NCBI RefSeq assembly: GCF_000764305.2
Contig: NW_025936509.1
Span: 287,913-351,912 of the forward strand
Origin: Hyalella azteca
Lineage: Eukaryota > Arthropoda > Malacostraca > Amphipoda > Hyalellidae
Direction: 5' to 3'
DNA length: 64,000 bases
Position numbers and translations under genes: made by a program. Below are positions 15,621 through 63,562 of the stretch, one piece after another (within the stretch, counting starts at the first letter, position 1; the number at the start of each line of letters is the position of its first letter). The notes below the pieces were generated by a model. The model did no database searches, had not been told where the DNA came from, and worked only from the letters and a program-made list of their open reading frames with translations.

Positions 15621-15621
15621 T

Positions 15622-15860
15622 AGGGTAAACGCGGTATATTCCGACATCGTAGGTAATTCCGTCACCTCTCCAGCTTTTCCTTTATATTAAGCTTTGTTTT
15701 AGTTCCATGNGTGTTTTTGCAGTATTTCGACACGCAAATGTATGACGTCACCATTTCAACCATCAATGAACGCATGGAACTAAAACAAAGCTTAATATAA
15801 AGGAAAAACTATAGAAGTGACGGAATTACCTACGATGTCGGAATATACCGCGTTTACCCT
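15622..15860. mobile_element. palindromic MITE, AGGGTAAAC family, copy a
   Basis: The two halves are inverted copies. The left begins AGGGTAAACGCGGTATATTC, and the right ends with its reverse complement. The arms include the segment TTTATATTAAGCTTTG. TA at both borders suggests a TA target-site duplication as in Tc1/mariner-derived MITEs. One ambiguous base (N) lies at 15709. Larger relatives are at 19805-21573. Confidence 0.85.
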
Positions 15861-23515: not shown

Positions 23516-26500
23516 GTGAGAACATTTTGTTGTATTTTAAATTCTTGAATTAATTTGGCTTATTTCATTGACTAATAAATTTATAGGTACCTCCTTTCTG
23601 CATTTAGAAAGATTTCTCTCTTCAAATATATTCTTATATTCCAAAATTATTATTTTTTGTACAATGTTTAAGGTATGAAATTTATGATTTTTTCAAAAGT
23701 TTAATTTCAGTATACAGTGGGGGGAAATAAATATTCGTACACTTGAAAAATCGTATTTTAATGTATGTAAGTACGCAAACTTAACAGGAAAAGTGATTTA
23801 AATTATGTATAGAGACGCATAGTATTCAAAAATACTATCAAAAGAAATTAAATCTCAATGCAACAAAAAACAATGCAACATGTTCACTTTTCAGGTGAAA
23901 AAAGTATTCGTACAAAACAATAAATTTGCATTATTTTAATTTAATACTTGGTTGAATACCCTTTATTCAGCTCAACAGATACCAGTCTATTTCTATACGT
24001 CTCGACCAATGATTTGCAGATGCTGACTGGTATTTTATACCATTCTTCTTGGCACACCACCTTAAGATTCTCAATGTTTAACTTTACATTAGGCACAGTG
24101 TTCTTTGGAAGGTAGGCTTCACCGTCTTTCCTCCACACATGGTGACGATAATTTCGACCGAAAAGCTCAATTTTTGTTTCGTCCGTCCAAAGAACCTTTT
24201 CCCAAAAAGCATAGTCTTTGTCCTTATACCCCTTGACAAATTTCAGCCTGGCATCTTGATGTCGTTTCATTAGGAGTGGGGTCTTTCTTGGGGTGTGTGA
24301 TTTTAATTCGTTTCTGTGAAGTTCATTGCTTATCGTTTGTTTGGTTACCTTAATTCCTGAGGCACTCAGGTGACTTTGCAACTCTCCTCGAGTAATCTGT
24401 GGATTTTCTTGGATTTTTCGTCCCAATAATCTAGCAGATCGTGCAGAAATCTTCCTAGGAGCACCTGATCACAGCTGGTTTTCAACGCTGTCACGGGTCT
24501 TGAAGCGTCCAATGAACGAAGCAACTGTACTAAAAGGAACATTCAAGTGGCTAGCAATCTTCCTATAACTTTCTCCTCCCTTCCAATGCGATAGAATTAG
24601 TTGTTTTTGGGAATTTGTTAGTTCTTTACCTTTAGCCATTTTTGAGACCTTCTTGTACTACGGGCAGTTGCAGAATGATCTGGTAGTTGCAAAATACGTT
24701 AACTATGGTTACTGATTACATTACTGGAACTTGCTACATATTTCTAGTACATTCTGGAATGTTCTGGTGTGAAATATTAGTCAAAAGTTGTTTTGTACGA
24801 ATACTTTTTTGACCCGAAGAAGTTAACATGTTGCATTAATTTTTGTTGCATTGAGATTTAATTTCTATTGATGCTATTTTTGAATACAATGCGCCTCTAT
24901 ACATAATATAAATCACTTCTCCTGTTCATTTTGTGTACTTACATAGGTACATTAAAATACGATTTTTCAAGTGTACAAATATTATATCACATTAATAATA
25001 CTGTAATTAATGAATATGGTAATATATCAATAAAGTAAAAACAAGTAAAAATCACAGAAAATGTCATTTATTTTACATCTACATCATCTACAATGAAAGA
25101 GGAGGACTTTCATTGTAGGACTGTTAGTAATAGATGAGTAGGTACACTCTGCATGCTTCAAATGTTTGAAATTGAGTTTTATTTCAAGTGTCCCTTTCTA
25201 CCCTATTTCAAGATTAATTCAGGAGCCTTTTATATTGCGTCTAGCGCCTTACAAATAGCACATGGAATTTTTTTGAAGATGCTATTCAATAGCCCGTGCA
25301 AAGTGCTATAAAATGAGCCTAAACTTGTTTCTGAAGTATTTCATGGTAAGAAGTTATTAACAAAAATCGCTCAAAACTGTCCCTTTTTACCCCGTTTGAT
25401 GGTATTACCTCCCCAGGGTAATATGGGACACCTCCAAAATTGCATTTACAGTAGAACCTTGGTTAATAAAAGCACCAGTTAATGAAAAATGTAATTAGGA
25501 GTTTATTTCATACTCCATAGTAGTGTGAGTATGTAACTGGCTCCTCAGAATAAAACATGGATGATGGAATTATGCCAGTTAAGAAATTGCCACTGCATAA
25601 TTTTCTTTAAGGAAATTTCTTATTCTATATATTCAAGAGTTCCAAGTGCACAAGTTCAACAGAGGAATGCTAATTAATAAAATTTTTGCTGGAATGTAAG
25701 AATTTTTCTTCTCTGGTTTGGCTACTGAATGTATTTTATTTATGACCTTTTCTGATGTTTTCAGAAAGATGAAACTGTCTCTGGTGAAAGGAAGCAATTT
25801 TCTTCTGATTCTTCATCTAAGGATTCTGGGCAAGAGTCAGGCTCTGACAGTGATGAAGCTGAAACAATTACCAAGTCTGAAACATTTACCAAGGCTCTTA
25901 CTACAGAACCTGAGAAAAAAGAATTTGAAGCATCTCAGGGTAATTTCAAGCTACCTGTTGATGATGGTGTAGAAAGTGATGAAGACAATGAGAATGTGGT
26001 GTTGGAGGACGATTTGCAGCCTAAAGTGGAAAAAGCTGTCAAGGGTAATATTGCCTCTGAGAACCTGGAGGAAGATCAGTACCAAGAGCGAGGTCCTTGC
26101 AAAGTGTCTCGTTCTTTCTATTCTGGGTCACGGTACAACCCTATGGTGGGTAATCAGCATTAAGAGTTGTTTCAAAACTGATGCCTTTTAAGCTTATACA
26201 TTCAAATTTATATCAGAAATTATGTAAGTTTTAAAGAAAGTATTTGCAATCTTCATGTCTTGACTAATTTGATTTATTCTAATATCTTCTCTGGTTTGCT
26301 GTATGCACTTTTTCTTGCTGTTTCCTTTAAAGCTAATTATTTTATGAAAGATTTCTTATGACCTTTTTTTCCCTGCTTCATTTGATGATGTAGACCTGGT
26401 CCAGGTTAGTTTTTATTCTATTAGTTTTGATGCATTGTGTTTCTGAGTCACTAAATTTGAAAAAGATGAAAATATACCTACATCTCAAATTATGATTCTT

Positions 26501-37312: not shown

Positions 37313-38225
37313 ATAACATAACATAGTGATGTCGGCTCTGAAGTGTAGGCCTGATGTGGCCTGTCGCCGATTCTTTTCCATTTCGTGCCTTGTTCATAGA
37401 TCTAAACTCGTGTCATTTGACCGGATCTTTTCATGACTGGCGATAGTTTGAAGAAGCTACTAGACTTCCACCGGGTTCGATAAGGAGCNNNNNNNNNNNN
37501 NNNNNNNNNNATGGGCCGGCCAGAACGGATGCTAATTCTTTGAGCAATCTGGGATGGCAGCCGTCTGGTCCACATGACTTGTTGGGATTTTGAGCTACCA
37601 GGCGCTTGAGAACCTCTTCTTCGTGTATTTCAAAACATGTTAACTTCGAGTCGACTGGGCGCTCCTCAATATCTGGAATACTGTTCAAGTCCTCATCTGT
37701 GAACACACTGCTGAAGAACTGATTAAGAACGTTAGCCTTGCCCTCATCAGAGGAAATCTTTTGTTGGTCTACTTTCAAATCGGATATACCGTCCTTTGAC
37801 TTACACTTCGAACTAGCGTACAGAAAGAAGGCTTTCGGATTCTTTTTGGCATTTTTAGCAATATTTTTTTCAAAGTTATTCACTGCAGTGCGACAAACTT
37901 TTTTAGCTTGATTTCGAGCTCTGGCATACAGGTTATAATCAGACTCACTGCGAGTTCGTAAATAACGCTTGTAGGCTTCTTTCTTGGTCTTTAGCTGAGT
38001 CTTAACTGCACTGGTCATCCACTGGGACTTTTTGACTCCTCCAAGCGTAATCTTGGGTACATAGGCATGAACTGCAGACATAACCGTGTCTTTAAGAAAC
38101 GACCATGAATCAGCCACATTCATGTCCTTAATACAGTCCGAAATATTCGCCGCAATCACTGTTTCAAGGAGTTTATCAATAATGTCTTCAGTCAAAAAAT
38201 TCTTGATGTTTAGCTCATGGTTGAA
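37313..38225 (-). pseudogene. CR1 LINE fragment: 3' UTR joined to linker/RT start across a gap
   Basis: Minus strand. 38195-37511 encodes a CR1 segment (ANISDCIKDMNVADSWSFLK, KKEAYKRYLRTRSESDYNLY, NPNKSCGPDGCHPRLLKELA), closely related to the 9.4-kb copy but without its stops. After a 22-N gap the sequence is already the 3' UTR (37488-37313), ending in the ATGTTATGTTATG tail. The RT catalytic core and C-terminus are therefore absent, by deletion or by assembly collapse at the gap. Confidence 0.85.
37489..37510. other. 22-base assembly gap
   Basis: A run of N inside a CR1 copy. CR1 regions that should be about 1.5 kb apart flank it, so the true gap size is probably not 22 bases. Confidence 0.95.
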
Positions 38226-38378
38226 CTATATCAAGATGACCTACGGCGATGACGATTTTTTGCCGTTCTTCGCATCTCTAGAGTGACGTCACTATGAGCA
38301 CAAAATGTAAATAGTGTACCTAGATCAACACATTGTTTTTATATCATCTTTGAAAGCATTTAAAAAAATTTACCTCAT

Positions 38379-38670
38379 CAAAATGGCCCATGAAAATTTA
38401 TTTACTGCATGCAACTAGTCTAATTTTAAGCAAAATAGGTGTTACAAATAAGTTTGAAGTCACGAGGTGACGTCACAAGAGCCAAGGTGGCGCCACAGTT
38501 GGAATAACAAATGACATACGCAAGGCGCAGCTGCACTAGGGAAAACCTTGTATTAGTTAAACCATGAAAATAATTGAAATTAAAATGGCTCCAACAAAAT
38601 TATTTACTGCAATTAGTCTTGTTTTAAGCAAAACAGGTGTTACAAAACAGTTTGAATCACACGGTGACGT
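38379..38670. repeat. diverged direct duplication around a TGACGTCA-type motif
   Basis: About 95-base copies at 38379-38475 and 38581-38670 share AATTTATTTACTGCA, TTTTAAGCAAAA and AGGTGTTACAAA, each followed by CAC..GGTGACGTC. A further GTGACGTCAC lies at 38283. This is probably a decayed repeat family. Confidence 0.7.
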
Positions 38671-38769
38671 CTCTGATTAGAGAGGAGGAACTACTTTTGT
38701 TTGATTAAAGATTTCCGTCCTACTCCTACTTTCTTTTCTAACCTTTCTTCTTGGTCTTGATGTAGTAAT

Positions 38770-39067
38770 TTCAACCTTTAACCGAAACTACAAATTTGAA
38801 AGAAATCCGTTCGGTATTTATGAATTTATGACTGGGTAAGTTGAAAATGAAGTCATGTTTTCCGTATTAATATAAAAGTATTTGATGTAAAAATCTGAAA
38901 TAAATCTGTCCGCAAATTACTAATATTATCTACTTATATTTCAAATTTGAAAGAAATCCGTTCGGTATTTATGGATTTATGTCTGGGTAAGTTGAAGGTG
39001 AAGTTAGGTTTGCCTCTTGAGATCGCGCTTGAGTTCGCGCTTGAGTTCGCTGAAGTGTCGATCCGGT
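38770..39067. mobile_element. half copy of the foldback element seen at 55168
   Basis: The right end, read inward, is ACCGGATCGACACTTCAGCG, nearly the same as the element at 55168-55931. The interior shares GTCCGCAAATTACTAATATT and ATCCGTTC. Only one terminus is recognisable, so it is truncated. Confidence 0.7.
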
Positions 39068-39969
39068 CCAAAATCTCTCGATTCGATTTTACCTTCCAAA
39101 TCGAATCCTCGCGGGGGAAGTGTTGAAAACTGCTATCATTCATTTCATTTAAGCAAAGAGTGATCACAATGTTCCCCATGTCTAAATTCAAATTAATTTT
39201 CCGACGGCATTATCTCCTTTACGTGTTTACTTGCACCCACTTAATTTCGCCATATCGAGGTTAATCCGCAGCCTTGAGATTTTCAGCCCTGGCAGCCATT
39301 CCAAGCCAGTTCAGCACCAACTATCACCGCATGACGACCTCCTCTACACACTTCACTGCCCTGCGTGTACGGATCGCTCCGTATCTGTGTATTTTGAACT
39401 TCGCGTAAGGATGGAGAGCGGCTAGCACTTTCTCGGTCAACCCCGTCAGCGAGATGGCACTCCGTGGAGACGCTAGCACCCGACGGCGCGCAGGAGGTCG
39501 ACTACTTCGCCTGCTGACTCGTCTGTGGACTCTATGAAAGCCTACTGTGGTAGAGGTGGGTCGCAGTGCACGGATTGGAGTGACATGCCGGTCGGCCTTC
39601 TACCTTCAGTTTATTTAGTTGATACACATTGTGATCACTAATGCTTTTTCCACTCGTGAACTCTTTAAAGGTGAATGTCCTACGTTATAGTTATAACCCT
39701 CAAATTATTGAACTATATATAGCTTCCAGAACTATGTTCTTGGCATTATTCTTAATTATTTAGATTCATCCCAATTTGCTAAAATCTATCATCATAATTT
39801 TCAGGCATTCACCTCTTGTCAACCGCGTGTGGTGCAGCGGCGGCACTCCAGCAATCCCGACGCTGTCTGGAAGTTTGCCGCTGCTTCGGGGTGCGATTGA
39901 GGCGACGCAGCTCGAAACCATTACGATCAATATAATTAACTTTAGTTCGTTGTCGTGCGTTTCTTTCAA
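39068..39969. other. gene-free stretch
   Basis: Only short ORFs. The boundary with the Jockey-type LINE at about 39970 is abrupt. A GC-richer section (39240-39600) shows no recognisable coding signature. Confidence 0.4.
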
Positions 39970-39990
39970 ACCCCCCACTCGTTTGCGTTT

Positions 39991-40818
39991 TCAAGATGTG
40001 ATGTCCGTTGTTCGTGTATGGGTAGTGACTGAGTGTTGTCTATGATTATGTCGGAGGTTTTTGTCTATTGATAGGATAATTTTGAACTTTGTGGTGTTGG
40101 TCCTAATTAGCCATTTGTTTTCGAATGTGTTTATCTGTTGGATGGCGTGTTGTGTTTGTTGTGCAGCATAGTTGTATTTGTAGCGTCGTGTTGTTATTTG
40201 TGTTATGTCGTCTGCAAATGCTATGTAATCTGTGTTGGGTAGTGGTGGTGGGAGGTCATGTGTATAGAAGCTGTATATTGTGGGGGAGAGACAAGCCCCT
40301 TGGGGAGCACCAGTTTGGAGTTGGAGTGGGGGACCTACGTGGTTGCCTATTCTGATGGATGTTGTTCTGTCATTGAGGTAGTCTGCAAGTGTTTTAGTGA
40401 AGGATGGGTGGAGATTGAGTTGGATGATTTTGTGTTGTAGTCCGGTGTGCCAAACCTTATCGAAGGCTTTGGCCGCGTCGTGGAGCACTATGTCGGTGGT
40501 GTGTTTTTGTGCTGTGTTTATGGCGAGTGTTTCGTGAAATGTAGCTAGTGCTGTGTGTGTCCCTCTGTGTTTCCTTAACCCGTGTTGCCTAGTGTTGTGT
40601 ATGTTGTGGATGGTGAGGTGTTCATATAGTCTGTTGTTGAGTATTTTGTCCAAGAGCTTCCCGTGTATGTCTAGTAATGAAATTGGTCTGAAGTTTTGAA
40701 CTTGGTGTTGTGATGTGTTGGGTTTAGGGAGGAAGATCATAATGGCGTGTTTCAGTGAGTCGGGGAAGTATCCAGCGGAGATGGAGTGGTTGAATATGTA
40801 TAGAAGGTAGTGTATCAT
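39991..40818 (-). pseudogene. Jockey-type reverse transcriptase
   Basis: NFRPISLLDIHGKLLDKIL, then motif A region IVLHDAAKAFDKVWH (normal LD.. changed to HD), GAPQGACLSPTIYSFY (motif B) and YIAFADDITQITT (catalytic F-A-D-D). The frame runs about 60 residues beyond motif C and then loses similarity near 39990. Confidence 0.85.
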
Positions 40819-41703
40819 GTTTTTGGGTAGATGTTTGAGTTGGACGGTTGTGATGCCAGTGGGGCCGGGTGCTTTCTGTTTAAATGTTCTGAGTGTACGT
40901 TGTAGTTCTCTGATGGTAATGGGTGGGAAGTCTACTGGGTGGAGTCTTGCAAGGTCGCCGGTATTGTATGGATATATGAGGTGTATGTTGTTGTTGTTTA
41001 TTTGGTCTTGTATGGTGTGAATGTGTTCTGTGTTAAAGTCTTCGTTGTCTGTGTCGTTCTGGGTGAATATGTCCTGCTAGTGTTTGCGGAAGATGGGTTC
41101 TTTTTGTTCGGGTGTGTCATGTTGTATGTTGTTGTGTTTGAGGTATGGGACAGCTTGTTTGTTGTTGGAGCCTATCATGCGTTTTAGGGATGACCAGAAT
41201 TTTTGGGATCTTTTTGTGTTTCTAATGTGATAATGAGGTCCTGCCACGTCTGTGTTTGGAGGTGTCTGTATGCTGTGTGTAATTGTTGTCGTAGGTGATG
41301 AGTTGTCTGTTGAGCGCTAGCGATGGGCCGTGTGTGTGGATGTATTGGAGGGTGGCTGATATTGTATTTGAATGAGTAATGTTTAGTGAGTGGGCTTGAT
41401 GCCAGTAATGATGCGATGTGTTATGGTGGGGATTGAGATATCGGTGGCGTTCAGTATGTGTTTTGTTCAGTTTTCTAAGTGCGTGTCTATTTCTTCCAGT
41501 GTAGAATCAGGTTGCGTGGGTACTGTGTCCTGTGATAATGCTTGTTTGTATAGTGTCCAGTTTGTTCTATGGAAGGATCTACGAGGACGGATGGGTATTT
41601 GTATGGGATTTGCGGAAATGGTGGCTATTATGGGAATGTGGTCTGAATGGGTCCGGGCTGTAGATGTATGTTGTGAAATACTTTATTATTGTGTAGGACT
41701 CTG

Positions 41704-42261
41704 TCAGGTAAGGTTGTTCTGTTGTGGGTGATGAGCGTTGGAAAGTAAAGTACTATATGGGTACATTAATTTGCGTTGGGATATTAGTGGGTGTAGTTGC
41801 CTTCCTATGTGGTTGGAGGAACTGTTTCCCAATGTTGTGTGTCTTGCGTTTATGTCTGATAGAAGGTATACGGGATGGGGCCTATTCAAAAGTGTGTGGA
41901 AATCGATGTAGTTGATGTAGTCTATGCGGGGTGGGATATATGTGGTTGCTATTGTGATGGGTCCTTGTTGGGTATCTATTGTGATTGCAAGCATGTCTGT
42001 ATGGAAGTTGTCGTGTAGTTTGTATGGGATATGGCGTTTTATGGCTATGGCAGCACCAGAGTGAATTGTGTTGTCTTCGTTGCAGCTATGTACGCTGTAA
42101 TTGCATATTTTGAGTGGAGTGTTGTTGTCTGTAATGGAGTGATCATTGATTAGTATTATGTCTGGGTCTATATGGTTGTAAATGTTTGCAAGAATGAATC
42201 TGTTGTTGTGCCAGTGACGGACGTTGTGTTGTATTATCTTTAGAGACGGTGGCAGGGTCAT
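41704..42261 (-). pseudogene. Jockey-type endonuclease domain
   Basis: SLKIIQHNVRHWHNN is the opening QxN(V) motif. PDIILINDHSI stands where E is expected (catalytic Glu replaced by Asp or shifted), then ITIATTYIPPR and VYLLSDINARHTTLG, where GDFNAH is usual (SDINARH here). Both changes suggest loss of function. A related segment recurs at 57450-57890. Confidence 0.75.
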
Positions 42262-42785
42262 TGTGATGGGTGTTTGAATGTGGAGTGCTTCATCTTTTTG
42301 GTGGTTGTTGTTGAGTGTTTTTCCATGTTGGCGAAGGTGTCATGAGGAATGATATTTATTAATGGTTGGAGTATCTTCAGTCTGTCATGCTTCAGGTAGT
42401 CAAGTATTTTCGATTAGTCAGCCTCCTTCACCGAGAGCGTCAGTCCGTAATCTTTCTTGCTAAATTCGTCCGAAAACCAATGATTAGATGGTCCGTCGGA
42501 ATTTCTACGTCTCTGGAGCTCCTAAATAGTTTAATGGGTGTTGGATCGTCGAGTCTGGGTCCTGTGACGAACGATTCTTCATACTGTTCGTCGATGCTCT
42601 TTCTTTTCCTAGGGTCACGGTCTTATTGATGGGTTTTGGATTTCTGAGGTGGAGGGTAAATTTTCCGATTGTCGTCGTCTTTTGGTTGTTGAGAGAGGTT
42701 GAGTAATGAGCGTCTAAGGTCGTCATCGTCGACGAATTCAGTCTCAGGGGTGAAGTCAGTGTCAGGGGCTTTGGTCTCTGGTTTA

Positions 42786-43956
42786 TTATAAAAGAAATTG
42801 AAAATTTTGAGTCCCCGTCGAAGTTGAGTCACCGTCGGGAAACATTGCGTCTATGTCGTAGTTGGCTTTCAGGGATTTGGATAGTATGCTACCGAACCCC
42901 TCCTGGCGGGAGAGGCTGGCAATGTGGGCTTCCAGTATTATGGCTGTCAGTTTCAGTTGAGTCTTGTCCGTCAATGTTAGGCTGTGTTGGGGGATGTTGG
43001 TTTGCTGGATTGCTTGTTTGACGATGTCGACGTAAGTTTGATTGGTCTTTGTCTTGATCGTCTCGGTCTGTATTTGTTGTTTGTGTTGGATTTTTTGCTT
43101 GCGGTATGGACAGTTTGCTGCTAGTGTTCGGTGGTCATTGTGGCAATTGAGACATTTTTTGTATGTGTTTGTGCATTGGGTGTAGGTGTGATCCTTGGCA
43201 GCGCATTCTGAGCATGATGGTGTAGTTGAGATGCATTGGTGAGTTGGGTGATCTTGAAATTTGTAGCATTTATAACAGATGAGAAGGTGTGTGTAGTGTT
43301 CTTGTTCACATTGTGATGGAGTGATTTTGGAGTTGGACATGTAGAATCCGTGGGAGAGTATTCCTTGTGCTATAGTGGTGTGTATAGTGATTATTTTGAT
43401 GATGTGTGTATATAGTGTTTTATTATAATGGTGTCCTGTATGTGTAGCCAGTTCTGTTGTGTAGTTATTTCGTGTTTGATTTCGTCTGCTGAGTGGCTAC
43501 CTACGTCCCTGTCAAGTTGTCTTACAAAAATGGTCCGTTTAGCTCGGAGGTCTGGGGGTATTATGGGTGTTAGGTTGATTTTGTGGAATGCTTCAGTCGC
43601 CTTTTTGGAAGTCAGTTTGTCGATCACTGTAGCATCGTCAGTCACGGCATAAAAACCAGTTGCGGTGTCAGTGAGTCGGATAAGTGGGGTGTCAAGTGCT
43701 TTAAAAGTTGTCTGAAATATTTTGGGTCGGTCCGTCGGGATTCTTGGGTCGATTTTTTGAGTTGGATGCGGTAAGTCTGGGATCTCGAGCGTTCTGATGG
43801 TGGGTTTGATGAGGATGAAGATGAGGGAGGGGGACGTGATGATACAGATGGAAGTCGAGGTCTTGATGATGATGGCGAGGGGCCACTGCCTCTCGCCCTC
43901 TGGGGCAAGCCCGTCGGGTTCGAGGCTGAAGTGCTCCCTGGTGGAGGGGGCATGAG
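42786..43956 (-). pseudogene. Jockey-type ORF1 (gag-like) with zinc knuckles
   Basis: Starts MPPPPGSTSASNPTGLP at 43956, with a Pro/Ser-rich region. After a frame change near 43645 the core follows (PPDLRAKRTIFVRQLDRDVG), then CYKCYKFQDHPTHQC, CSECAAKDHTYTQC and CLNCHNDHRTLAANC, three Cys/His knuckles at about 43270-43080. It ends with an acidic tail (FPDGDSTSTG). It binds the element RNA in the living family. The copy is split over at least three frames. Confidence 0.8.
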
Positions 43957-44129
43957 GGTATGGGGAGGGGGGAGCGAAAACACAAGTATATGAAGGGATT
44001 GCAGTCGTATGTACAAAAAAAAAGGTATAGACAGAGGCAAAAAAGTAAAGTCTCTAATTCCTAGCGACACTCACGACACGAAGGCTGCTAATCCAAGGTG
44101 AGGCTGCTGATAAGTCACAAGAGAGCACA

Positions 44130-47034: not shown

Positions 47035-47732
47035 CCAAATGAGCGTCAACGGCGGACTAAACCTGGCTCAAACTACCCATTGAATTGGCACAATGTGGCA
47101 CCGTCGCCGGTCCCATGAACCTTTTCTTCGTAAATAGTGAACGGGATATTATCATAGTAATTATAGCTCAAAGTTATGAATGAGTATTTAACATTGGAAG
47201 ACTATTTAACATTAGAAGAATATTCAACATTGGAACACTATTTAACATTAGAACACCATTTAACATTGGAAGACTTCTCTTCACATCGCTTAGTTACTTT
47301 TAGCTTCTGAACGAGTTTGCAGTTCTTTAGATTCAATTTCAACATATCACGTAGATTTAATTTCAACGTGGTTTCAATGCAACATCTTTCTGAATTCTTT
47401 TGATTTCTCCCCTAGAAAATTTAACTTTATGATAATTACTAAAATAAAAACGTATTACTTATATCTAACCAACCCGTTAATTTTTATCAACCAATCGTAC
47501 TAGAAAGTCAATTAGTCTCTCAACTGCCGAACTGTTACAATGAAACGAAAGCGGTAATTAATTAAGCCATAACACAAGAGGCCACCACCCATGAGGCACC
47601 CGTCACACAGCGAGGATGTTTTACATCCTTGGCTTCGGGAACAAAAAATTTCCAATTAGATTCAGATTAATTTTGAAATATCTTTTTCTACAGTTTAGGA
47701 TTCAAATTTATAACTGACATTTCTTGAATACT
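47035..47732. repeat. large inverted repeat, left arm
   Basis: Inverted copy of 49847-50509. Shared blocks include CGTCAACGGCGGACTAAACC, AGTGAACGGGATATTATCAT, the ATTTAACATTGGAAGAC short repeats and GTAAAACATCCTTGGC. The arms differ by scattered substitutions and by the number of AACATTGGAAGACTATTT units, so this is not a trivial assembly mirror. Confidence 0.9.
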
Positions 47733-47825
47733 TGCAGCTTGATATTATATAATGATTTTTTACATACATAGTCTTATTATGAATTAATTTAGTAATGGTC
47801 GGTCGAAGTGAATCTGCTAGTCATT

Positions 47826-48880
47826 TAACATAACATAACATAACATAGTGATGTCGGCTCTGAAGTGTAGGCCTGATGTGGCCTGTCGCCGATTCTTTTC
47901 CATTTCGTGCCTTGTTCATAGATCTAAACTCGTGTCATTTGACCGGATCTTTTCATGACTGGCGATAGTTTGAAGANNNNNNNNNNNNNNNNNNNNNNNN
48001 NNNNNNNNNNNNNNNNNNNNNNNNNNNNNNNNNNNNNNNNNNNNNNNNNNNNNNNNNNNNNNNNNNNNNNNNNNNNNNNNNNNNNNNNNNNNNNNNNNNN
48101 NNNNNNNNNNNNNNNNNNNNNNNNNNNNNNNNNNNNNNNNNNNNNNNNNNNNNNNNNNNNNNNNNNNNNNNNNNNNNNNNNNNNNNNNNNNNNNNNNNNN
48201 NNNNNNNNNNNNNNNNNNNNNNNNNNNNNNNNNNNNNNNNNNNNNNNNNNNNNNNNNNNNNNNNNNNNNNNNNNNNNNNNNNNNNNNNNNNNNNNNNNNN
48301 NNNNNNNNNNNNNNNNNNNNNNNNNNNNNNNNNNNNNNNNNNNNNNNNNNNNNNNNNNNNNNNNNNNNNNNNNNNNNNNNNNNNNNNNNNNNNNNNNNNN
48401 NNNNNNNNNNNNNNNNNNNNNNNNNNNNNNNNNNNNNNNNNNNNNNNNNNNNNNNNNNNNNNNNNNNNNNNNNNNNNNNNNNNNNNNNNNNNNNNNNNNN
48501 NNNNNNNNNNNNNNNNNNNNNNNNNNNNNNNNNNNNNNNNNNNNNNNNNNNNNNNNNNNNNNNNNNNNNNNNNNNNNNNNNNNNNNNNNNNNNNNNNNNN
48601 NNNNNNNNNNNNNNNNNNNNNNNNNNNNNNNNNNNNNNNNNNNNNNNNNNNNNNNNNNNNNNNNNNNNNNNNNNNNNNNNNNNNNNNGATTTTTAGGAAG
48701 TGTTTCTGTAATACAAATAATGTCTATACTCTCGTTTGCGATCACAGTTAACAGTTCACTTTTTTTGTTCAAAACGGAATCCGAGTTCGTGTAAAAACAT
48801 TTTAAAACTTTTTGTGCACTTTCACTTTGATGTATGCGGTTCCTCCCTACATTATTTACAGGCCTTAGTTGGGTTATCAA
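47826..48880 (-). pseudogene. CR1 LINE copy spanning an assembly gap
   Basis: Minus strand. The endonuclease start (CFYTNSDSVLNKKSELLTVI, then IDIICITETLPKN with catalytic Glu) lies at 48800-48688. The 3' UTR with CCGGTCAAATGACACGAG and the (ATGTT)n tail lies at 47976-47826. Everything between is N. A complete element would need more than 2.5 kb there, so either the gap length is wrong or the copy is internally deleted. Confidence 0.85.
47977..48687. other. 711-base assembly gap
   Basis: A run of N within a CR1 copy and within the spacer of the large inverted repeat. Confidence 0.97.
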
Positions 48881-48959
48881 CTATAAAGTATAGTATAATA
48901 TATAATGTACACGTACAACATAAAATTATTCAATATATCATCTATTAACATAATTAATT

Positions 48960-49330
48960 CGTTAGTAAATTATAATGATAATAAATAATTCAAAGTCAAT
49001 CAAGCTCAGTGGTTTTTTTCACAGCTCACGCAAGGCTGCGCTGTTCAACAGCAACGCATAACTGCGCCCAACCTGCAGCGCCTGACGCGTGTAACATCAC
49101 GCGACTTTATAAACAATGTAAACAATAATTCAAATTTTTGTCACTGTTGATGAGAACGTTTCTCTGGGTTTGAACACAGCAGGGTTACTGGAATGAATGA
49201 ATTAACTCATTCATGATGCAATATTCGACTAACAACATCGCCTCTCAATTACAGACTTCAACACGCAATGTTTCATGAGTGACGCTCTCAATGGCTTGAG
49301 CAGCGATATGAAGCACATATCTGAACTTCA
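48960..49330 (+). repeat. diverged third copy of the 55-kb/61-kb repeat segment
   Basis: GGCTGCGCTGTTCAACAGCA, GCGTGTAACATCACGCGACT and TTATAAACAA, and further on GATGAG.AC.TT, match 55150-55170 joined to 55932-56110 and 61535-61740. It is more diverged than those two are from each other and has no foldback insertion. Confidence 0.75.
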
Positions 49331-49430
49331 AGTATAATAATGTAATAGTTCAGGCCATCCAACACGTACCCCGGCGGCATGGGAATATTTCGAACTTATT
49401 TTTTTACTTACTTTAGTTATCAAATGTTAA

Positions 49431-49842
49431 CATATTGTGCAATAAGCACAAAAAAAGTTTATGACGATTGACGGTACTAAAAATTATTCCGATTGGAAAA
49501 TATATTTATGATCTGATCTATGCATTTTCGTTATTGTAAAAAAACGTTTCAATTTCGAACTTTAAATTTTATTGAATCTTATGAAGTATTATTTATCAAA
49601 CAAACTCGGATTACGCGGTTACGGTTTCAATCTATTGCGGTTACAATCTATGAGGGACGCGTAATCCGACTTTGTTTGATAAATAATACTTCATAAGATT
49701 CAATAAAATTTAAAGTACGAAATTAAAACGTTTTTTACAATAACGAAAATGCAGAGATCAGATCATAAATATATTTTCCAATCGGAATAATTTTTAGTAC
49801 CGACAATCGTTATAAACTTTTTTGTGCTTATTACACAATATG
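49431..49842. mobile_element. 412-bp snapback MITE flanked by TTAA
   Basis: Left half (49431-49617) and right half (about 49650-49842) are nearly perfect inverted copies, from CATATTGTGCAATAAGCAC at the ends to AAACTCGGATTACGCG near the centre. TTAA at 49427-49430 and 49843-49846 fits a target duplication. The RNA or single strand would form a hairpin of about 190 bp. Confidence 0.9.
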
Positions 49843-49846
49843 TTAA

Positions 49847-50509
49847 GTATTCAAGAACTGTCAGTTATAAATTTAAATCCTAAACTGCAGAAAAAGATAT
49901 TTCAAAATTAATCTGAATCTAATTGGAAATTTTTTGTTCCCGAAGCCAAGGATGTAAAACATCCTCGCTGTGTGACGGGTGCCTCATGGGTGGTGGCCTC
50001 TTGTGTTATGGCTTAATTAATTACCGCTTTCGTTTCATTGTAACAGTTCGGCAGTTGAGAGACTAATTGACTTTCTAGTACGATTGGTTGATAAAAATGA
50101 ACGGTTTTGTTAGATATAAGTAATACGTTTTTATTTTAGTAATTATCATAAAGTTAAATTTTCTAGGGGAGAAATCAAAATGAATTCAGAAAAGATGTAT
50201 TGAAACCACGTTGAAAGTAAATCGACGTGATATGTTGAAATTGAATCTAAAGAACTGCAAACTCGTTCAGAAGCTAAAAGTAACAAAGCGATGTGAAGGG
50301 AAGTCTTCCAATGTTAAATAGTGTTCCAATGTTAAATAGTCTTCCAATGTTAAATGCTCCTTCATAACTTTGAGCTATAATTACTATGATAATATCCCGT
50401 TCACTATTTACGAAGAAAAGGCTCATGAGATTGGCGACGGTGCCACATTGTGCAGCCATTTCAATGGGTAGTTTGAGCCAGGTTTAGTCCGCCGTTGACG
50501 TTCATTTGG
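49847..50509. repeat. large inverted repeat, right arm
   Basis: Reverse-complement partner of 47035-47732; it starts directly at the TTAA of the snapback MITE. The outer border TCATTTGG mirrors CCAAATGA at 47035. Confidence 0.9.
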
Positions 50510-52124: not shown

Positions 52125-53160
52125 ACATGCATGTGTGCATGCATGTAAGCATGTGAGCGTATAGGCATGTAAGCATATAAGCATGTAAGCATGTAAGCAT
52201 GTAAGCACGTAAGCATGTGAGCATGTAAGCATGTAAGCCTGTAAGCATGTGTGCATATGTGCATGTTAGCATGTAAGCATGTGAGCATGTACGCATGTTA
52301 GCACGTAAGCATTTAAGCATGTAAGCATGTAGGCGTACAAGCATGTAAGCATGTAAGCAAGTAAGCATGTAAGCATGTAAGTGTATAAGCATGTGCGCAT
52401 GTAAGCATGTAAACACGTAAGCAAGTAAACATATATGCATGTAAGCATGTAAGCTTGTAAGCATGTAAACATGTAAGCATGATAGCATGTGTGCATGAAA
52501 GCATGTGCGCATGTAAGCATGTAAACATATAAGCATGAAAGCATGATAGCATGTGTGCATGTAAGCATGTAAGCATGTGTGCATGTAAGCATGTAAAAAT
52601 ATATGCATGTAAGCATGTAAACATTTAAGCATGAAATCATGATAGCAAGTGTGCATGTAAGCATGTAAGCACACAAGCATGTAAGCATGTAAGCACGTAA
52701 GTATGTAAGTATGTAAGCATGTCAGCATGTAAGCATGTAAGCTTGTAAGCATGTAAACATATAAGCGCGAAAGCATGATAGCAGGTGTGCATGATAGCAA
52801 GTGTGCATGTAAGCATGTAAGCATGTAAGCATGAAAGCATGTGCGCATGTAAGCATGTAAACATATAAGCATGAAAGCATGATAGCATGTAAGCATGTAA
52901 GCATGTGTGCATGTAAGCATGTGTGCATGTAAGCATGTAAGCATGTGTGCATGTAAGCATGTGTGCATGTAAGCATGTAAGCATGTAAACATATAAGCAT
53001 GAAAGCATGATAGCATGTAAGCATGTAAGCATGTGTGCATGTAAGCATGTGTGCATGTAAGCATGTGTGCATGTAAGCATGTAAAAATATATGCATGTAA
53101 GCATGTAAACATTTAAGCATGAAATCATGATAGCAAGTGTGCATGTAAGCATGTAAGCAT
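52125..53160. repeat. 8-bp satellite array A (AAGCATGT)n
   Basis: About 1.04 kb of the octamer AAGCATGT with variants (GTGTGCAT, AAACATAT, GATAGCAT). A higher-order pattern of several hundred bases repeats: blocks with ATATAAGCATGAAAGCATGA occur near 52530, 52865 and 52995. Because eight bases shift frame each unit, all three minus-strand frames give the same Met-Leu-Thr-Cys-Leu-His-Ala-Tyr pattern and stay open, which creates ORFs up to 333 codons that are not genes. Confidence 0.97.
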
Positions 53161-54599
53161 GCAAATAACTAAGTCAAGCCTCGCAAGGAGTCACTGCTTT
53201 GTAGTGTCGCGCCGGGCAGGTTGCTCTGTGCAGGTGGCGCTGTACACGTCGTGTTATGCAAACTGCCTCGAATATTTTTAATTCTGCAATAGTTACCCTA
53301 TGAACAAAAAATTATCATTTAACTGAAATTGAACAGACACTGATGATATAAGTTCATGATATTTCGTTTTTAAATAGATTTTTTAATACAATACACATAG
53401 CTCAAAATTATATAGTTTTAAATTGTTATTGAAACAAATTACTGCTATGCTAAATTTCTACCAAAATATTAGTTCACTTAGCAAGGCATGTTAGGGAAAT
53501 TGCCACGAAGTGGTGTAAGTTTTCCAATTTGCTATGTAATTTTGGGACTCAATCGAGTCAGCGAAGTGGTGGATTTTTCTATCTTCCTTTCAATTGTGTA
53601 CGCGTACTAATTACAAACCTCAGAACATAACCTTCCTTAATTATGACTTTATGACGACAGAGGGATAGGGAGAAATCACAACTTCGAATTACATCATGAG
53701 TCATTTCATGTCACACGACATAAAATTTAACTTCAGTTACTCCGTGTACATTTTTTTTTCGTCCTGTAATGCAATTTTCTGAATTTTTCTCCTCATAGGA
53801 ATGACTGCTTTATATCACTGCACACAGCACACTTGAGGCATGCGAACAAAGAGCGATGTAACGACATAATAACGAGGATTTCTTGGATTAGGATCACAAG
53901 TTATGCTTCTAAAACATATTGAAAAGATCTTCAAATTAGATGGAATATATTAATGCAGAAAAATACGGTACATCATTAATATGTCTAAATCATTACTGCC
54001 ATGAATAATCAACGCTTCATTTCCTCGTTCCCCTTCAAAAATAACTGAAAATTATATTCCCTGACTTATTCACTAAAATTTCATCCACTGTAGCTAATTA
54101 TTCACGTTTTTTTCATTTCAGTGTCATGCAGTACTCAGAGCAAGAACATTAGTTCCCGTTAGCAATCGATCATCAATTTTTACCATAGTTACCCTGTGAT
54201 AAAATTTGATTTGTAATACATTTGGAACAAAAATTTATAACGATTAGGCACAAAATATTATTTTTTACGATAGACTTTTTTCGAGAAAACACATATTTTA
54301 TTCGTATTAACTTCATAAATACTCATCTTTAGCGCAAATGATTTTTATGCAGAACATTCTTGTAAACTTTCAGTTAAGTGAATATGGCAATATCCTCTAT
54401 CCTCCTTCAGCAACTAAAAATAGTGGCGTAAAATATTTTGTAGACTCTGGAGAGTCAACTGAGTACTTCATTTATAGTGGGATGATCAGAGATGCACGTG
54501 GCGCTCGAAGTATAATTAGAAGCTAAGCCAACGCCAGTCCGCCACGTGTCTCTTCGAAGGCGCCATTTGTTACAAGTGTGACATAATAAAGTTACATTC

Positions 54600-54694
54600 C
54601 ATAATAAAGCGGTCGCTCCTCACTCTAAAGTCTAAAATCACTCTGGCATAACTTTGTCGCTACTCTGGCTTGGCTCTGTCCTCACGCTGGCATT
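54600..54694. other. 95-bp block that is the same-direction complement of 60990-61084
   Basis: Position by position, each base here is the Watson-Crick partner of the base 6,390 positions to the right (A with T, C with G), read in the same direction. I checked the 95 positions by eye and found no exception. The bases before 54600 and after 54694 align directly at the same offset. No ordinary repeat class describes this. Confidence 0.85.
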
Positions 54695-55167
54695 CCTATG
54701 GCAAATCTCTGAAGTGACTCTGGCGCTGTGTGACGTTTATTTTTATTCACAGGCTGTGTGACGAGAATGTTTTGCTGTCATTTGAGTTCGAGAACAAATA
54801 AATCACCAATTAGATAAAGAGAAATTGTGAAATATCTTTAATTTACTGTTGATTATTTAAATTTACTAGAACAGACATTTGTTTAATTCCTGTAGCCTAA
54901 TTAATACCATAGAGGGATTTTTATTAGTGTTATTATTATAATTAATTCAATGATGGATGGACGGGGAGAACCTGCTTATCATAGGATTCAGTTAATAAGC
55001 TAACATCCATATATCTGTAATATAATATATAATTATTATGGAATAATATATAAACACATATAACATCTAATTACATGAATTAATGCAATAGTTTATTCAA
55101 TTATAATGAATGCTTTGATCAATGTCGGTCGGTATTTCAGATCACGAGAGGCTGCGCTGTTCAACAG

Positions 55168-55931
55168 ACCGAATCGACACTTCAGCGAACTCGCTTGCGA
55201 ACTCGAGTGCAAAACCTAACTTCATTTTCAACTCAGACACTCATAAATCCGTCAATAGTGAACGGATTTTATTCAAATTTCAAATATAAGTAGATAATAT
55301 CAGTAATTTGTGGACGGATTTTTTTCAAATTTTTACTTCAATGACTTTTTTGTTAATACGGAAAACCTAACTTCATTTTCAACTCAAACACTCATAAATC
55401 CGTGAATAATGAACGGATTTTATTCAAATTTGAAATATAAGTAGATAATATCAGTAATTTGTGGACGGAATTTTTTCAAATTTTTACATTCATTACTTTT
55501 TTATTAACACGGAAAACCTAACTTCACGTTCACCTCGCAGGTTAGGTCCTAGTCAGGTCAAGTTTCAGTATTTTGTGGCATTAACAAAAAGTAATTGACG
55601 TAAAAATGTGAAATAAATCCGTCCACAAATTACTGATATTATCTACTTATATTTCAAATTTGAATAAAATCCCTTCATTATTGACGGATTTATGAGTGCC
55701 TGAGTTGGAAATGAAGTTAGGTTTTCCGTATTAACAAAAAAGTTATTGAAGTAAAAATCAGAAAAAATTCCGTCCACAAATTACTGATATTATCTACTTA
55801 TATTTTAAATTTGAATAAAATCCGTTCATTATTGACGGATTTATGAGTGCCAGAGTTGAACGTGAAGTTAGGTTTTGCATTCGAGTTCGCAGGCCAGCTC
55901 GCACGCGAGTTCGCTGAAGTGTCGGACCGGT
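55168..55931. mobile_element. 764-bp foldback element with 8-bp target duplication
   Basis: TTCAACAG is present at 55160-55167 and 55932-55939. The ends are ACCGAATCGACACTTCAGCG and, inward from the right, ACCGGTCCGACACTTCAGCG. Long inverted arms contain ATAAATCCGT, GATAATATCAGTAATTTGTG and AACCTAACTTCA, the last repeated several times. An 8-bp duplication fits hAT- or P-like transposition. No ORF. Copy B and the 49-kb copy show the uninterrupted TTCAACAGCAACGC site. Confidence 0.9.
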
Positions 55932-56548
55932 TTCAACAGCAACGCACAACTGCGCCCGACCTGCAGCGTCTGACGCGTGTAGCATCACGCAACTTTATAA
56001 ACAATAATTTCTAGATCATTTATTCACTAATACTGCAAAGAGCTTTAAAAATTATGCAATTCATGAACAAAACCATTGTTTTCATTATTGATGAGGACAT
56101 TGCTTTTGGCTTGAACTAAGTATCATAACTGGAAGAAATTGATTTACTTATTCTGAAAAAGTGTATCATGATGTAATTAATATTAGTTGTTTTCTTTCTT
56201 TTTAAGGGGGAAGGTCGTGCTGTGTCTTATGGTATTGTAAAATGGGGGATAAATTGAATAAATGAAATTTAATCTGATTTTCGTTTATACAAGTTCCTAA
56301 TAAATCCAAATTCAGGTTTGAATATCGTTCAAATTTCAAAACCGGTGAGATAATCGATAATTGTAGCATTGGAAGAGCCTACATTCTTCGATATTATTCA
56401 ATCAATTCATTTATAAGATGTTTTTATTCCTTACGAATGCTCTCAAACAGAAAAAAATTATTAATTTAATTGATTAGATTAACTGAATTTTTTCGATCCG
56501 TAGTCACGGAATGTAATTTCGGAAATGACGTTTACTTCTGCGATTCTG

Positions 56549-57450
56549 TTATTTCTGTGGGATTCCGGTTTCAGCTGCGGTCAAAGACGGACGTTGCCAT
56601 CTACACCGATCGGTCGCAGATCAACATCCCGGCACCATCCACATCTGCTGCACTGTTCATCCCATCTAAAGGTGTTTTGCTGAGCAGGAAACTCCGTCCG
56701 GAGGTTGAGGTAATCGAATCGGAGCTTTTTGCTACACATGAAGCCTTGAAATGGTCCCAGTGTAATCTAAGATCAGAGAAAATTGTTATATTCAGTGACT
56801 CACAATCATCTATCAATCTGATAAAGAATAGACAACCTTCATGCTATCTCAACCTAGTTTTTCAAATTCAAAGTATAATTATATATCTTATAATTATAAC
56901 CTCCCGCGAGGTATATATCCAATATATTCCTGGACATAAGGGAATCTCTGGCAATGAGACAGCAGACCAAGCTACCAGGGATGCACATTGCACACGCTCT
57001 ACGCTACCGCACCCTCACCGTTATGTCAAAGGAGGAGCTGGTAAGATTAGTCCATGACAAGATTCAGGCCAGCTGGAACCAATCTTGGCTGCACAATGTG
57101 AACAGCTCAGGCAGGGGCCAATTCCTTACACGCATACAGAAAAAATTGGTTACTGGCCTTGGGCAAACAACAATAATCGTATACTGTTGAGACTGCTTTA
57201 ACTAGGCTGCGCACTGGCCATGCATGCTGGCGAGTTAGAGCCCATTTGGCTCGGTTTAAATTGTGTGATAGCCCATTATGTGCCCACTGAAACTATAGAA
57301 CACCTGTTGCTTCATTGCCCTTGGCATGCCCCAGCCAGAGTTAATTTAACTAACACACTGACGCGTCTTAATATCCCTGTCACGCTGCAAAAATTACTTG
57401 GAGGAGGCCCCTATCCTAGCCTCATCCAGAACTTGATAGTAGATGCTCTT
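56549..57450 (+). pseudogene. LINE fragment: RNase H and C-terminus
   Basis: TDVAIYTDRSQINIPAPSTS, VIESELFATHEALKWSQ, IVIFSDSQSSINLIKN and IQYIPGHKGISGNETADQAT carry the four RNase H catalytic blocks (D, E, D, and the H/D region) in order. Later frames give SKEELVRLVHDKIQASWNQS and ETIEHLLLHCPWHAP, a C-terminal finger remnant. Frameshifts lie near 57000 and 57190. The family is RNase-H-bearing (I or Ingi-like), different from the 5.5-kb LINE. No RT is present. Confidence 0.8.
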
Positions 57451-58914: not shown

Positions 58915-59538
58915 GTAAGCGCATAAGCATGTAAGCATGTAAGCATGTAAGCGTATAAGCATGTAAGCATGAAAGTATGTAAGCACGTAAGCATGTAAGC
59001 GTATAAGCATGTAAGCATGTCAGCATGTAAGCACACAAGCATGTAAGCAAGCAAGCGTATAAGCATGTAAGCAAGTAAGCATGTAAGCACACAAGCATGT
59101 AAGCATGTAAGCACATAAGCTTGTAAGCGTATAAGCATGTAAGCATGTAAGCACGTAAGCATGTAAGCATGTAAGAGTATAAGCATGTGCGCATGTAAAC
59201 ATATAGGCATGTAAGCATGATAGCATGTGTGCATGTAAGCATGATAGCATGTGTTTAAGTAAGCATGTGTGCATATAAGCATGTACGCATGTTAGCACGT
59301 AAGCATTTAAGCATGTAAGCATGTAGACGTACAAGCATGTAAGCATGTAAGCGTACAAGCATGTAAGCACGTAAGTATGTAAGTATGTAAGCATGTAAGC
59401 GTATAAGCATGTGCGCATGTAAGCATGTAAACATGTAAGCATGTAAACATATAAGCATGTAAGCTTGTAAGCATGTAAACATTTAAGCATGAAATCATGA
59501 TAGCAAGTGTGCATGTAAGCATGTAAGCATGTAAGCAT
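58915..59538. repeat. 8-bp satellite array B (AAGCATGT)n
   Basis: About 620 bases of the same octamer as array A, with variants GCGTATAA, AAGCACAC and GATAGCAT. It directly precedes copy B just as array A precedes copy A. The left flank is different from that of array A. Confidence 0.97.
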
Positions 59539-62346
59539 GCAAATAACTCAGTCAAGCCTCGCAAGGAGTCACTGCTTTGTAGTGTCGCGCCGGGCAGGTT
59601 GCTCTGTGCAGGTGGCGCTGTGCACGTCGTGTTGTGCTGACTGCGTCGAACAATTTTAATTCTGCAATTGTTACCCGATGAAGGAAAATTTATTATTTAA
59701 CTTAAATTAAACAGACACTGATGATATAAGTTCATGACATTTTGTTTTAAATAGATTTTTTAACACAATTTACATAGCTCGAAATGATATAGTTTTAGAT
59801 TGTTATTGAAAGAAATTACTTCTATGCTAAATTTCAACCAAAATATTAGTTTACTTAGCAAGGCATGTTAGGGAAATTCTCACGAATTAGTTGGTAGCTT
59901 TCCGTTTTGCTATGTAATTTTGGGACTCAATCGAGTCAGCGAAGTGTATCAGGTGGATTTTTGTATCTTCCTTTCAATTATGTACGCTTACTAATTACAA
60001 ACCTCAGAACATAACCTACTTTAATTATGACTTTATGACGACAGAGGGATAGGAAGAATTCACAACTTCGAAGTACATCATGTCATTTCATGTCACACGA
60101 CATATAATTTGACTTCAGTTAGTCCGTGAACAATTTTCTTTGTCTCGTGATGCAATTTCTGAAATTTTCTCCTCATAGGAATGACTGCTTTAAATCACTG
60201 CACATTTGGGGCATACGAACAAAGAGCGATGTAACGATATAATAACGAGGATTTCTTGGATTAGGATTACAGGTTATGCTTCTAAAACATATTGAAAAGA
60301 TCTTCAAATTAGATGGAATATATTAATGCACAAAAATACGGTACATCATTAATATATCTAAATCATTCCTGCCATGAATAATCACCGCTGGCGATTCTGC
60401 CGATTCATTTCCTCGTTCCTCTTCAAAAATAACTGAAAATTATATTCCCTGACTTATTCACTAAAATTTCCTCCACTGTAGCTAATTATTCTCGTCTTTT
60501 TCATTTCAGTGTCATGCAGTACTCTAGGGCAAGAATATTGATTCCCGTTAGCAATCGATCATCAATTTTTACCAAAGTTACCCTGTGATAAAATTTGATT
60601 TGTAATACATTTGGAACAAAAATTTATAACAATTAGGCACAAAATATTATTTTATACGATGGATTTTTTTATAAAACACATATTTTATCCATATCAACAT
60701 CATAAATATTCATCTCGAGCGCGAATGAATTTTATGCAGCACATTTTCGTCAACTTTCAGTTAAGTGAATATGGCAGCATTCTATATCTTGTTCGGTAAC
60801 TAAAAATAGTGGCGTAAAATTTCTTGAAGACTCTAGAGAGTCAACGAAGTACTTCATTCATAGTGGGATGATTAGATACTCATGTGCGTGGCGCTCGAAG
60901 TAAAATTGGAGGCTAAGCCAACGCCAGTCCGCCTCATGTCTTTTTGAAGCCACCATTTGTTACAAGTGTGGCATAATAAAGTTACAATAGTATTATTTCG
61001 CCAGCGAGGAGTGAGATTTCAGATTTTAGTGAGACCGTATTGAAACAGCGATGAGACCGAACCGAGACAGGAGTGCGACCGTAACCTATGGCAAATCTCT
61101 GAAGTGACTCTGGCGCTGTGTGACGTTTATTTTTATTCACAGGCTGTGTGACGAGAATGTTTTGCTGTCATTTGAGTTCGAGAACAAATAAATCACCAAT
61201 TAGATAAAGAGAAATTGTGAAATATCTTTAATTTACTGTTGATTATTTAAATTTACTAGAACAGACATTTGTTTAATTCCTGTAGCCTAATTAATACCAT
61301 AGAGGGATTTTTATTAGTGTTATTATTATAATTAATTCAATGATGGATGGACGGGGAGAACCTGCTTATCATAGGATTCAGTTAATAAGCTAACATCCAT
61401 ATATCTGTAATATAATATATAATTATTATGGAATAATATATAAACACATATAACATCTAATTACATGAATTAATGCAATAGTTTATTCAATTATAATGAA
61501 TGCTTTGATCAAGGTCGGTCGGTATTTCAGATCACGCGAGGCTGCGCTGTTCAACAGCAACGCATAACTGCGCCCGACCTGCAGCGTCTGACGCGTGTAG
61601 CATCACGCGACTTTATAAACAATAATTTCAAGAGAATTTATTTACTAATACTGCAAAGAGCTTTAAAAATTATGCAATTCATGAACAAAACCATTGTTTT
61701 CATTACTGATGAGGACATTGCTATTGGCTTGAACTAAGTATCGTAACTTGAAGAAATTGATTTACTTATTTATGATGTAATTAATATTCGTTGTTTTCTT
61801 TGTTTTTAAGGGGGGAGGTTGTGCTGTGTCTGATGGTATTGCAAAGTGGGGGATAAATTGAATAAATGAAATTTAATCTGATTTTCGTTTATACAAGTTC
61901 GTAATAATTCCAAATTCAGGTTTGAATATCGTTCAAATTTCAAAACCGGTGAGATAATCGATAATTGTAGCATTGGAAGAGCCTACATTCTTCTAAATTA
62001 CTCAATCAATTCATTCATAAGATGTTTTTATTCCTCACAAATGCTCTGAAAAAGAAAAAAATCATTGAATTGAATTGAATTGTCGGTGTAGTAGGCACTC
62101 AAGCCTGTTCACCCGCCTTGTTCGCCCTCAGCATAGCCGCCCCCATTAGGTTACACGCGCAGATGGTGCCCCCCAGGTGACTGCAAACTGAAAGGCTAAT
62201 GGTAGCACTCAGGATCGAAAAGGCCCGGTCGGTCCGCCCAGCAACTGTCCCAGCAACATTCATTTGGTTGATTAGATGAACTGAATTTTTTCAATCCGTA
62301 GTCACGGAATGTAATTTCGGAAATGGCGTTTACTTCTGCGATTCTG
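59539..62346. repeat. duplicated segment, copy B
   Basis: Direct counterpart of copy A (53161-56548). It lacks the foldback element, so TTCAACAGCAACGC at 61550 is the empty site, and it has its own insertion at 62068-62262. It ends at the same TTCTGCGATTCTG and then passes into a LINE/PIF sequence. No gene recognised. Confidence 0.85.
62068..62262 (-). mobile_element. probable SINE with (AATTC)n tail
   Basis: Absent from copy A at the corresponding site. On the minus strand it contains TTGCTGGGACAGTTGCTGGG (A-box-like) and CTTTTCGATCCTGAG (B-box-like), and ends in AATTCAATTCAATTC. This is consistent with a tRNA-derived SINE with a pentameric tail. Confidence 0.5.
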
Positions 62347-62354
62347 AGTTCTTA

Positions 62355-63559
62355 GGGTACGGCCAGACTAAAAGCGTTGGCGCGTACGCAGGCGTACGCG
62401 CGCTCACGCTGCGATATTATATATATGTATTTCTACCAGAGTGGCCACACTAAACGCGTACAGGCAGAAGCTGCCTCAAGCGTACACACGCGTTGCTGCG
62501 CGGTGGAAAATCGACATTACTCGAGACAAATATTTCGACGCGGACACGCGCGTGCAGTGTTCTTGAAGCAGCCATGAGAGAAGGATGTCGACGCATTGCT
62601 CTCGTCAGTCGAGGCGGTACCTGCAATCTGGGATGCCTCCCACCCACAGCACAGTGATGGGACAAACATCAGCATCCACTGGTCTCTGATAGCTGATGCA
62701 CTCAATATTTCAGCTAAGAACAGTAATAATACATTCTTTCATTAAACAAAGAGAATAGAAGTGAACGAACTTAGCACTCAGAGCACTAGGATATTCCTAT
62801 TGTCTATTTAGAGCATATGATACTGCCAAGCAACTTTTCCTGCATCTGATACGAAATAATTTGTGAATTTTTCCCGAACATCTGTTGCAATTCTACAACT
62901 GTTTCTATGAACAGGAGCAATTATAGTTTCAGGTTGATCATTCGATGCCTTCAATTCCATTGATATGCCGTGTCTTTATCAAATTTCTGCCTAACAAGTT
63001 ATAAGAATCATGTTGCGCAAAACCGTAATTGCTTTAGTTATTTCTGCAGCATTATCCATGCTGGTCTCGATGGATTTCGTTAAAAATCTGAAATTTGAAG
63101 TCATAATGCCAAAGGTGCATTCTACACAACGCCGAGCTCTTGATAGTCTGTAGTTATATATTTTCTTGCTAGGCGGGGGCATGGTCTCATTAAGTTAGGA
63201 AGCAATGGGTAAGCTGCATCACCTTGCTACACAAGTGGCGTTTCATTATGACTCATAATCTCATATATAACCTCATGCATCATATAAGATATACATCATA
63301 TATAACCTCATCTGAACGGATTCAAAAAAAGACAAAATAAAGTATATATGGGATTTTTAAATTTATCTTTTATTTCTCTATAAAACTTTCATCAATGAAA
63401 ACGGATGTTAGTCTCTCGCAGACACTCATTTCTACACACTGACTCGCAGTAAGCTGCGCAGTTCAGCGTCTAGTTTGGACACCATACGAGCGGCGCGGCG
63501 CCGCTCTGCTTGAAGCGTCAGCCAGCGTACGCGTGAACGCTTTTAGTCTGGCCGTAGCC
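62355..63559 (-). mobile_element. PIF/Harbinger-type element, internally deleted
   Basis: TTA duplications at 62352-62354 and 63560-63562. Ends are GGGTACGGCCAGACTAAAAG and, inward from the right, GGCTACGGCCAGACTAAAAG. The TTA target and about 1.2-kb length fit a PIF/Harbinger derivative. It splits a LINE C-terminal reading frame. Confidence 0.9.
62991..63182 (-). pseudogene. Harbinger transposase C-terminal fragment
   Basis: PPPSKKIYNYRLSRARRCVE, then CTFGIMTSNFRFL and ITKAITVLRNMIL. This is the conserved end of the DDE nuclease family of PIF/Harbinger, in which RxVVE carries the catalytic Glu (RCVE here). The upstream catalytic Asp regions and the Myb-like partner gene are absent. Confidence 0.85.
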
Positions 63560-63562
63560 TTA

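Follow-up and report, generated by a model that had tools for sequence, protein, structure and literature searches.

The duplicated locus and its surroundings

The window analysed here, a 64-kb stretch of Hyalella azteca DNA, contains a tandem segmental duplication whose copies, taken from a gapped alignment, lie at 53172-56470 (copy A) and 59550-62080 (copy B), and in which sit the two 95-base blocks that are the subject of this report. The parts of the duplication are the following.

53172-54599, plus strand: left part of copy A; 121 of 1412 columns are mismatched in its alignment to 59550-60989, the last mismatch being at 54599
59550-60989, plus strand: left part of copy B, counterpart of 53172-54599
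54600-54694, plus strand: block in copy A, probably native, forming the first 95 bases of a perfect-identity tract; complementary to 60990-61084 at 95 of 95 positions
60990-61084, plus strand: block in copy B, probably altered, the parallel complement (95 of 95) of the block in copy A
54695-55122, plus strand: remainder of the perfect-identity tract in copy A, 428 bases equal to 61085-61512
61085-61512, plus strand: remainder of the perfect-identity tract in copy B, identical to 54695-55122
55160-55931, no strand assigned: 772-bp insert with long inverted repeats, present in copy A only; context, outside the anomaly
55932-56470, plus strand: right part of copy A, differing from 61550-62080 in 30 of 525 columns
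61550-62080, plus strand: right part of copy B, counterpart of 55932-56470

Around the insert, the alignment runs from 54695-55159 against 61085-61549 and then continues with 55932 opposite 61550. The arms of the insert (55185-55501 and 55586-55902) are 92% complementary; the insert is also missing from a diverged relative at 48933-49117, which runs across the insertion site, and a partial relative is present at 38791-39068. Further to the right, related sequence picks up again at 56460-56548 and 62258-62346. The latter segment is related to the start of an RNase H frame, open in copy A (56470-57057), and lies just left of 62354-63560, a stretch in copy B that is bounded by 46-base inverted repeats (87% complementary) and has the appearance of an inserted DNA transposon. 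Each copy has on its left an array of GCATGTAA-type satellite, at 52141-53161 for copy A and 58924-59539 for copy B. It is a degenerate 8-base satellite, present in 127.6 copies in the array at 52141-53161, and is open in several minus-strand frames, which gives rise to HAYMLTCL-like reading frames that are probably meaningless.

Elsewhere in the window, decayed LINE-type fragments (reverse transcriptase, endonuclease and RNase H), together with a Tc3-like transposase frame, are found at 8744-13918 (plus strand), 37431-44053 (minus strand) and 23941-24468 (minus strand). Pfam matches at an E value of 0.001 were obtained for 8 of the 20 frames scanned, one of the eight falling below the curated cut-off, and a search of the window against Rfam returned no family at its gathering score. 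For the reverse transcriptase at 39991-41076, the named relatives among 120 of its 243 matches come mostly from the amphipod Trinorchestia longiramus, with 53 to 70% identity; others in that set are from some shrimp and one moth. A large inverted-repeat structure that encloses an N gap occupies 47120-50421. It is made up of two exactly matching 210-base arms (47480-47689 and 49889-50098) together with additional segments that match, and the arms resemble parts of the perfect tract (54762-54982) with 70 to 73% similarity. Finally, the segment 15600-15860 contains a single N at 15710, and the 89 bases that precede it (15621-15709) recur as an imperfect reverse complement (score 77) that starts about 60 bases after it. 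This segment is either a hairpin element in which a single base was left unresolved or an artefact of strand handling at this site.

A parallel complement in register

Comparison of 54600-54694 in copy A with 60990-61084 in copy B gives direct identity at 0 of 95 positions and complementarity, with the order of the letters kept, at 95 of 95, free of indels. The offset between the copies is 6,390 inside the block and in the direct homology on either side of it. To the right, direct alignment restarts at 54695 opposite 61085 and the next 428 bases (54695-55122 and 61085-61512) are gap-free and identical; to the left, 54491-54599 aligns directly at the same offset with 15 mismatches in 109 positions. 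The probability of a 95/95 complement for one fixed pair of segments is about 4^-95, and chance is thereby excluded. Complete complementarity without an indel, with direct alignment resuming on both sides at an offset of 6,390, had been claimed in the initial annotation of this DNA, and our recomputation reproduced each of these points exactly.

The same annotation held that the block is not an inversion, and this too is borne out. The reverse complement of the copy A block is identical to the copy B block at only 13 of 95 positions, and the complement itself holds without a single exception. A microinversion generated by recombination or template switching would resemble the block in being short, sharply bounded, in place and neutral in length, but it yields a reverse complement, which was looked for here and is absent. 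A mirror repeat fares no better, the plain reverse of the copy A block matching copy B at 22 of 95 positions. The segment does contain a degenerate 22-base repeat (reported for copy B, 61028-61086), and one might imagine that near-symmetry or low complexity had caused an ordinary inversion or mirror repeat to be misread. However, the copy A block matches its own reverse at only 13 of 95 positions; it is not mirror-symmetric and therefore cannot be a disguised ordinary inversion. Together with the equally poor match of its reverse complement to copy B, this refutes the misreading, to which we attach a negligible probability. The geometric relation is the one that repeat-finding programs label "complement" or "everted"; the repeats known under these labels are short chance matches, whereas the present block is complementary at 95 of 95 positions, in register, within true paralogues.

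The whole window was scanned for direct, parallel-complement, reverse-complement and reversed matches using exact 16-base seeds, with simple words and Ns left out. It returned 399 direct segments and, with each counted from both of its sides, 154 reverse-complement ones, but only one parallel-complement pair, the A/B block itself, reported from each side; all four reversed matches were stretches matched against themselves. No further parallel-complement block was thus found at repeat junctions in this window by the seed scan, and one case within 64 kb is too few to reveal a pattern.

The probably altered copy

The coordinates given in the initial annotation, 54600-54694, are those of the copy A block. 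It identified the right pair, but the altered member is more likely the one in copy B, at 60990-61084. We consider this likely, though not proven; the comparisons that bear on it (short repeated units, word sharing, local score and, with mixed results, Markov models) overlap and are not independent of one another.

One indication comes from short repeated units, which were sought in 301 bases of each copy. Units resembling ACTCTGGC with at most one mismatch occur at 54640, 54662 and 54684 within the copy A block and again outside it at 54717; in copy B, such a unit is present outside the block, at 61107, and none is present inside. The complement unit, TGAGACCG, occurs within 60890-61190 inside the block only. 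Similarly, CATAATAAAG lies immediately outside the block in either copy; in copy A alone it also begins the block.

Word sharing points the same way. Between the block and its 200-base flanks, the A-type letters have 9 7-mers in common with the flanks of copy A and 11 with those of copy B, against 1 in each case for the B-type letters. The resulting differences, 8 with the A flanks and 10 with the B flanks, are matched by 11.4% and 8.3% of 3000 native segments, respectively, and their negatives are reached by 1.1% and 0.3%; an earlier run with the A flanks and 1500 native segments had given 10.1% versus 0.7%. For all word lengths from 5 to 8, and whichever copy supplies the flanks, word sharing favours A. 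A variant based on the best local score is weaker, with a difference of 3 and proportions of 13.2% versus 4.1%.

Markov models are less uniform in their verdict. The first set (orders 2 to 5) was trained on the control segments themselves, and the models were then redone with held-out controls, for which the A-minus-B differences at orders 1 to 5 are +1.74, +0.90, +0.38, -0.39 and -3.80 nats, where native segments average +1.2 to +2.1 nats. Orders 1 to 3 lean weakly towards A as the native copy, order 4 slightly and order 5 clearly towards B. At order 5, 5.6% of native segments have scores as low as the one A would have, and native segments near the A value make up 5.8%, compared with 19.7% near the B value.

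No third copy of the block turned up in the window; the weak relatives that exist (47610 onwards, 49967-49849 and 48933 onwards) all begin to its right and do not cover it. Two 25-base words, one A-type and one B-type, found no match in a search of viral contigs.

The perfect tract and the repeat junction

With the 95 complemented bases counted after complementing, 54600-55122 forms a tract of 523 bp (95 complemented and 428 direct bases) with 0 mismatches, amid paralogues that differ by 7.8% elsewhere (151 of 1937 columns, pooled); at that divergence, and with columns treated as independent, such a tract has a chance probability of 3.7e-19. Beyond its two ends, the nearest A/B differences fall at 54597 and 54599 (left) and at 55123 and 55147 (right). 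The tract opens on its left with the block, whose first base follows directly upon the last A/B difference, and a 95-base segment placed randomly within the tract would touch an end of it in 2 of 429 positions.

A stretch of excess identity bounded by paralogue differences is what interlocus gene conversion between tandem segmental duplicates leaves behind, and the tract is either the product of such conversion, or of some other recent identity, or one shared piece of an assembly graph that was placed twice; a collapse of the copies, or the filling of a gap with sequence from the counterpart, would mimic a conversion tract. Gene conversion copies in proper polarity, however, and the complemented 95 bases lie beyond its reach. 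For the letters to represent real DNA, copying or conversion between the duplicates would have to have involved synthesis of 95 bases parallel to their template, or the joining of a strand segment whose backbone polarity was reversed and which replication then fixed. We regard this as highly improbable. The sequence as given is on its side, the block does lie at one end of a conversion-like tract, where a synthesis event may have started, and one abstract claims parallel-direction DNA synthesis in PCR (PMC4304224). Against this, the block is the only instance found in the window, and zero errors in 95 bases between indel-free junctions would demand a parallel copier of high fidelity. Polymerases extend antiparallel to the template, and recombination and template switching yield reverse complements.

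The block is very probably a software artefact rather than a real biological feature, and its position suggests how it may have arisen. When copy B is written in A-type letters, the first word shared by A and B begins at 54600 for all ten word lengths tried, so that the block begins at the first word common to both repeat copies. The first shared word of length 95 is 54600-54694 itself; given the shared left edge, that value follows from the length of the block. Ninety-five is K-1 for the default K of ALLPATHS-LG, which is given as 96 in passages of two papers (PMC5905499; PMC4779268), although this match was noticed only in hindsight, and a good many odd lengths could coincide with the k of one assembler or another. 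A general review describes assembly graphs as having k-mers for nodes, linked via overlaps of k-1 (PMC3861042), and unipaths built with K = 96 would have neighbours that overlap by 95.

We therefore favour, with a probability of roughly three in four, a strand error made during assembly or gap filling at a repeat junction, superimposed on an ordinary gene-converted or collapsed repeat. Two copies of a repeat-rich sequence, diverged by about 8%, share at least 428 and probably 523 identical bases, either through recent gene conversion or since the assembler put one shared graph piece in twice. In a k-mer graph, the copies would merge at their first common word, which for 95-base vertices (K = 96 edges) is the block. 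When the assembler output the copy B path, or a gap in it was closed, the 95-base junction string may have been inserted with its strand wrongly handled: a plus-strand string complemented, or a minus-strand string reversed and left uncomplemented, the resulting letters being identical. Either slip would hit one stored word, and would be expected to leave a block of set length after which the sequence is correct again. What is observed are the letters, the boundaries, the perfect tract and its coincidence with the 95-base merge vertex; the use of K = 96 (or k = 95), a slip at the path-writing or gap-filling step and an error in B rather than A are inferred. If an assembler keeps its graph words in a single canonical orientation, the minus-strand slip is at least as natural as the other.

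The initial annotation had considered an assembly, polishing or file-handling error the likeliest cause, and the location of the block at a 95-base merge vertex of the repeat lends support to that view. Its more specific proposal, a complement applied without reversal, may be correct, but it is not the sole form that the slip could take, as the minus-strand alternative shows. The merge-vertex reason for the position of the block, the probable wrong copy (B) and this second type of slip are what the present analysis adds.

Errors at repeat junctions are familiar from de Bruijn graph assembly, for example with ALLPATHS-LG at K = 96, where unipath ends have K-1 overlaps. The block shares with them its site, at the first shared word, and the identical tract downstream in both copies, and its length would equal K-1 under the default K. 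The usual junction errors are collapses, misjoins, duplications and true inversions; an unreversed complement differs from all of these, and our narrow literature search found neither such a case in print nor a printed report of an assembler bug of this kind.

The history of the assembly is relevant here. The window contains N gaps at 37489-37510 and 47977-48687, and is thus part of a gapped scaffold. A 141-base exact direct repeat occupies 37314-37454 and 47836-47976, its second copy ending where the 711-base gap (47977-48687) begins, and the end of such a repeat is where a k-mer or short-read assembly might break. H. azteca is an i5k species. For i5k arthropod genomes, two papers describe the use of ALLPATHS-LG, Atlas-Link and Atlas gap-fill (PMC7570057; PMC6977273), the second of them also describing a later re-assembly with Redundans, and two papers on published talitrid amphipod genomes name Platanus and SSPACE instead (PMC7062882; PMC7831040).

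Some other artefact is the main competitor of the junction error: a home-made or vendor step of gap filling, polishing, scaffold merging or file conversion, or later editing of the file, in which case the match to a 95-base vertex would be a coincidence. Complementing without reversing is a common scripting slip, and no assumption about K is required. It would nonetheless leave unexplained why the block starts directly after the last A/B difference, and we judge it fairly unlikely.

If an assembler or gap-filler does mishandle the strand of junction words, the same scar is to be expected at repeat boundaries in assemblies made in a like manner. Such scars would escape aligners that test direct and reverse-complement matches only, and comparisons would take them for novel sequence; searching simply for parallel-complement blocks that share one fixed length would detect them. 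Were the letters to represent real DNA after all, they would violate the rule that templated synthesis is antiparallel. In biological terms, the locus most likely amounts to no more than a repeat that carries a conversion-like tract.
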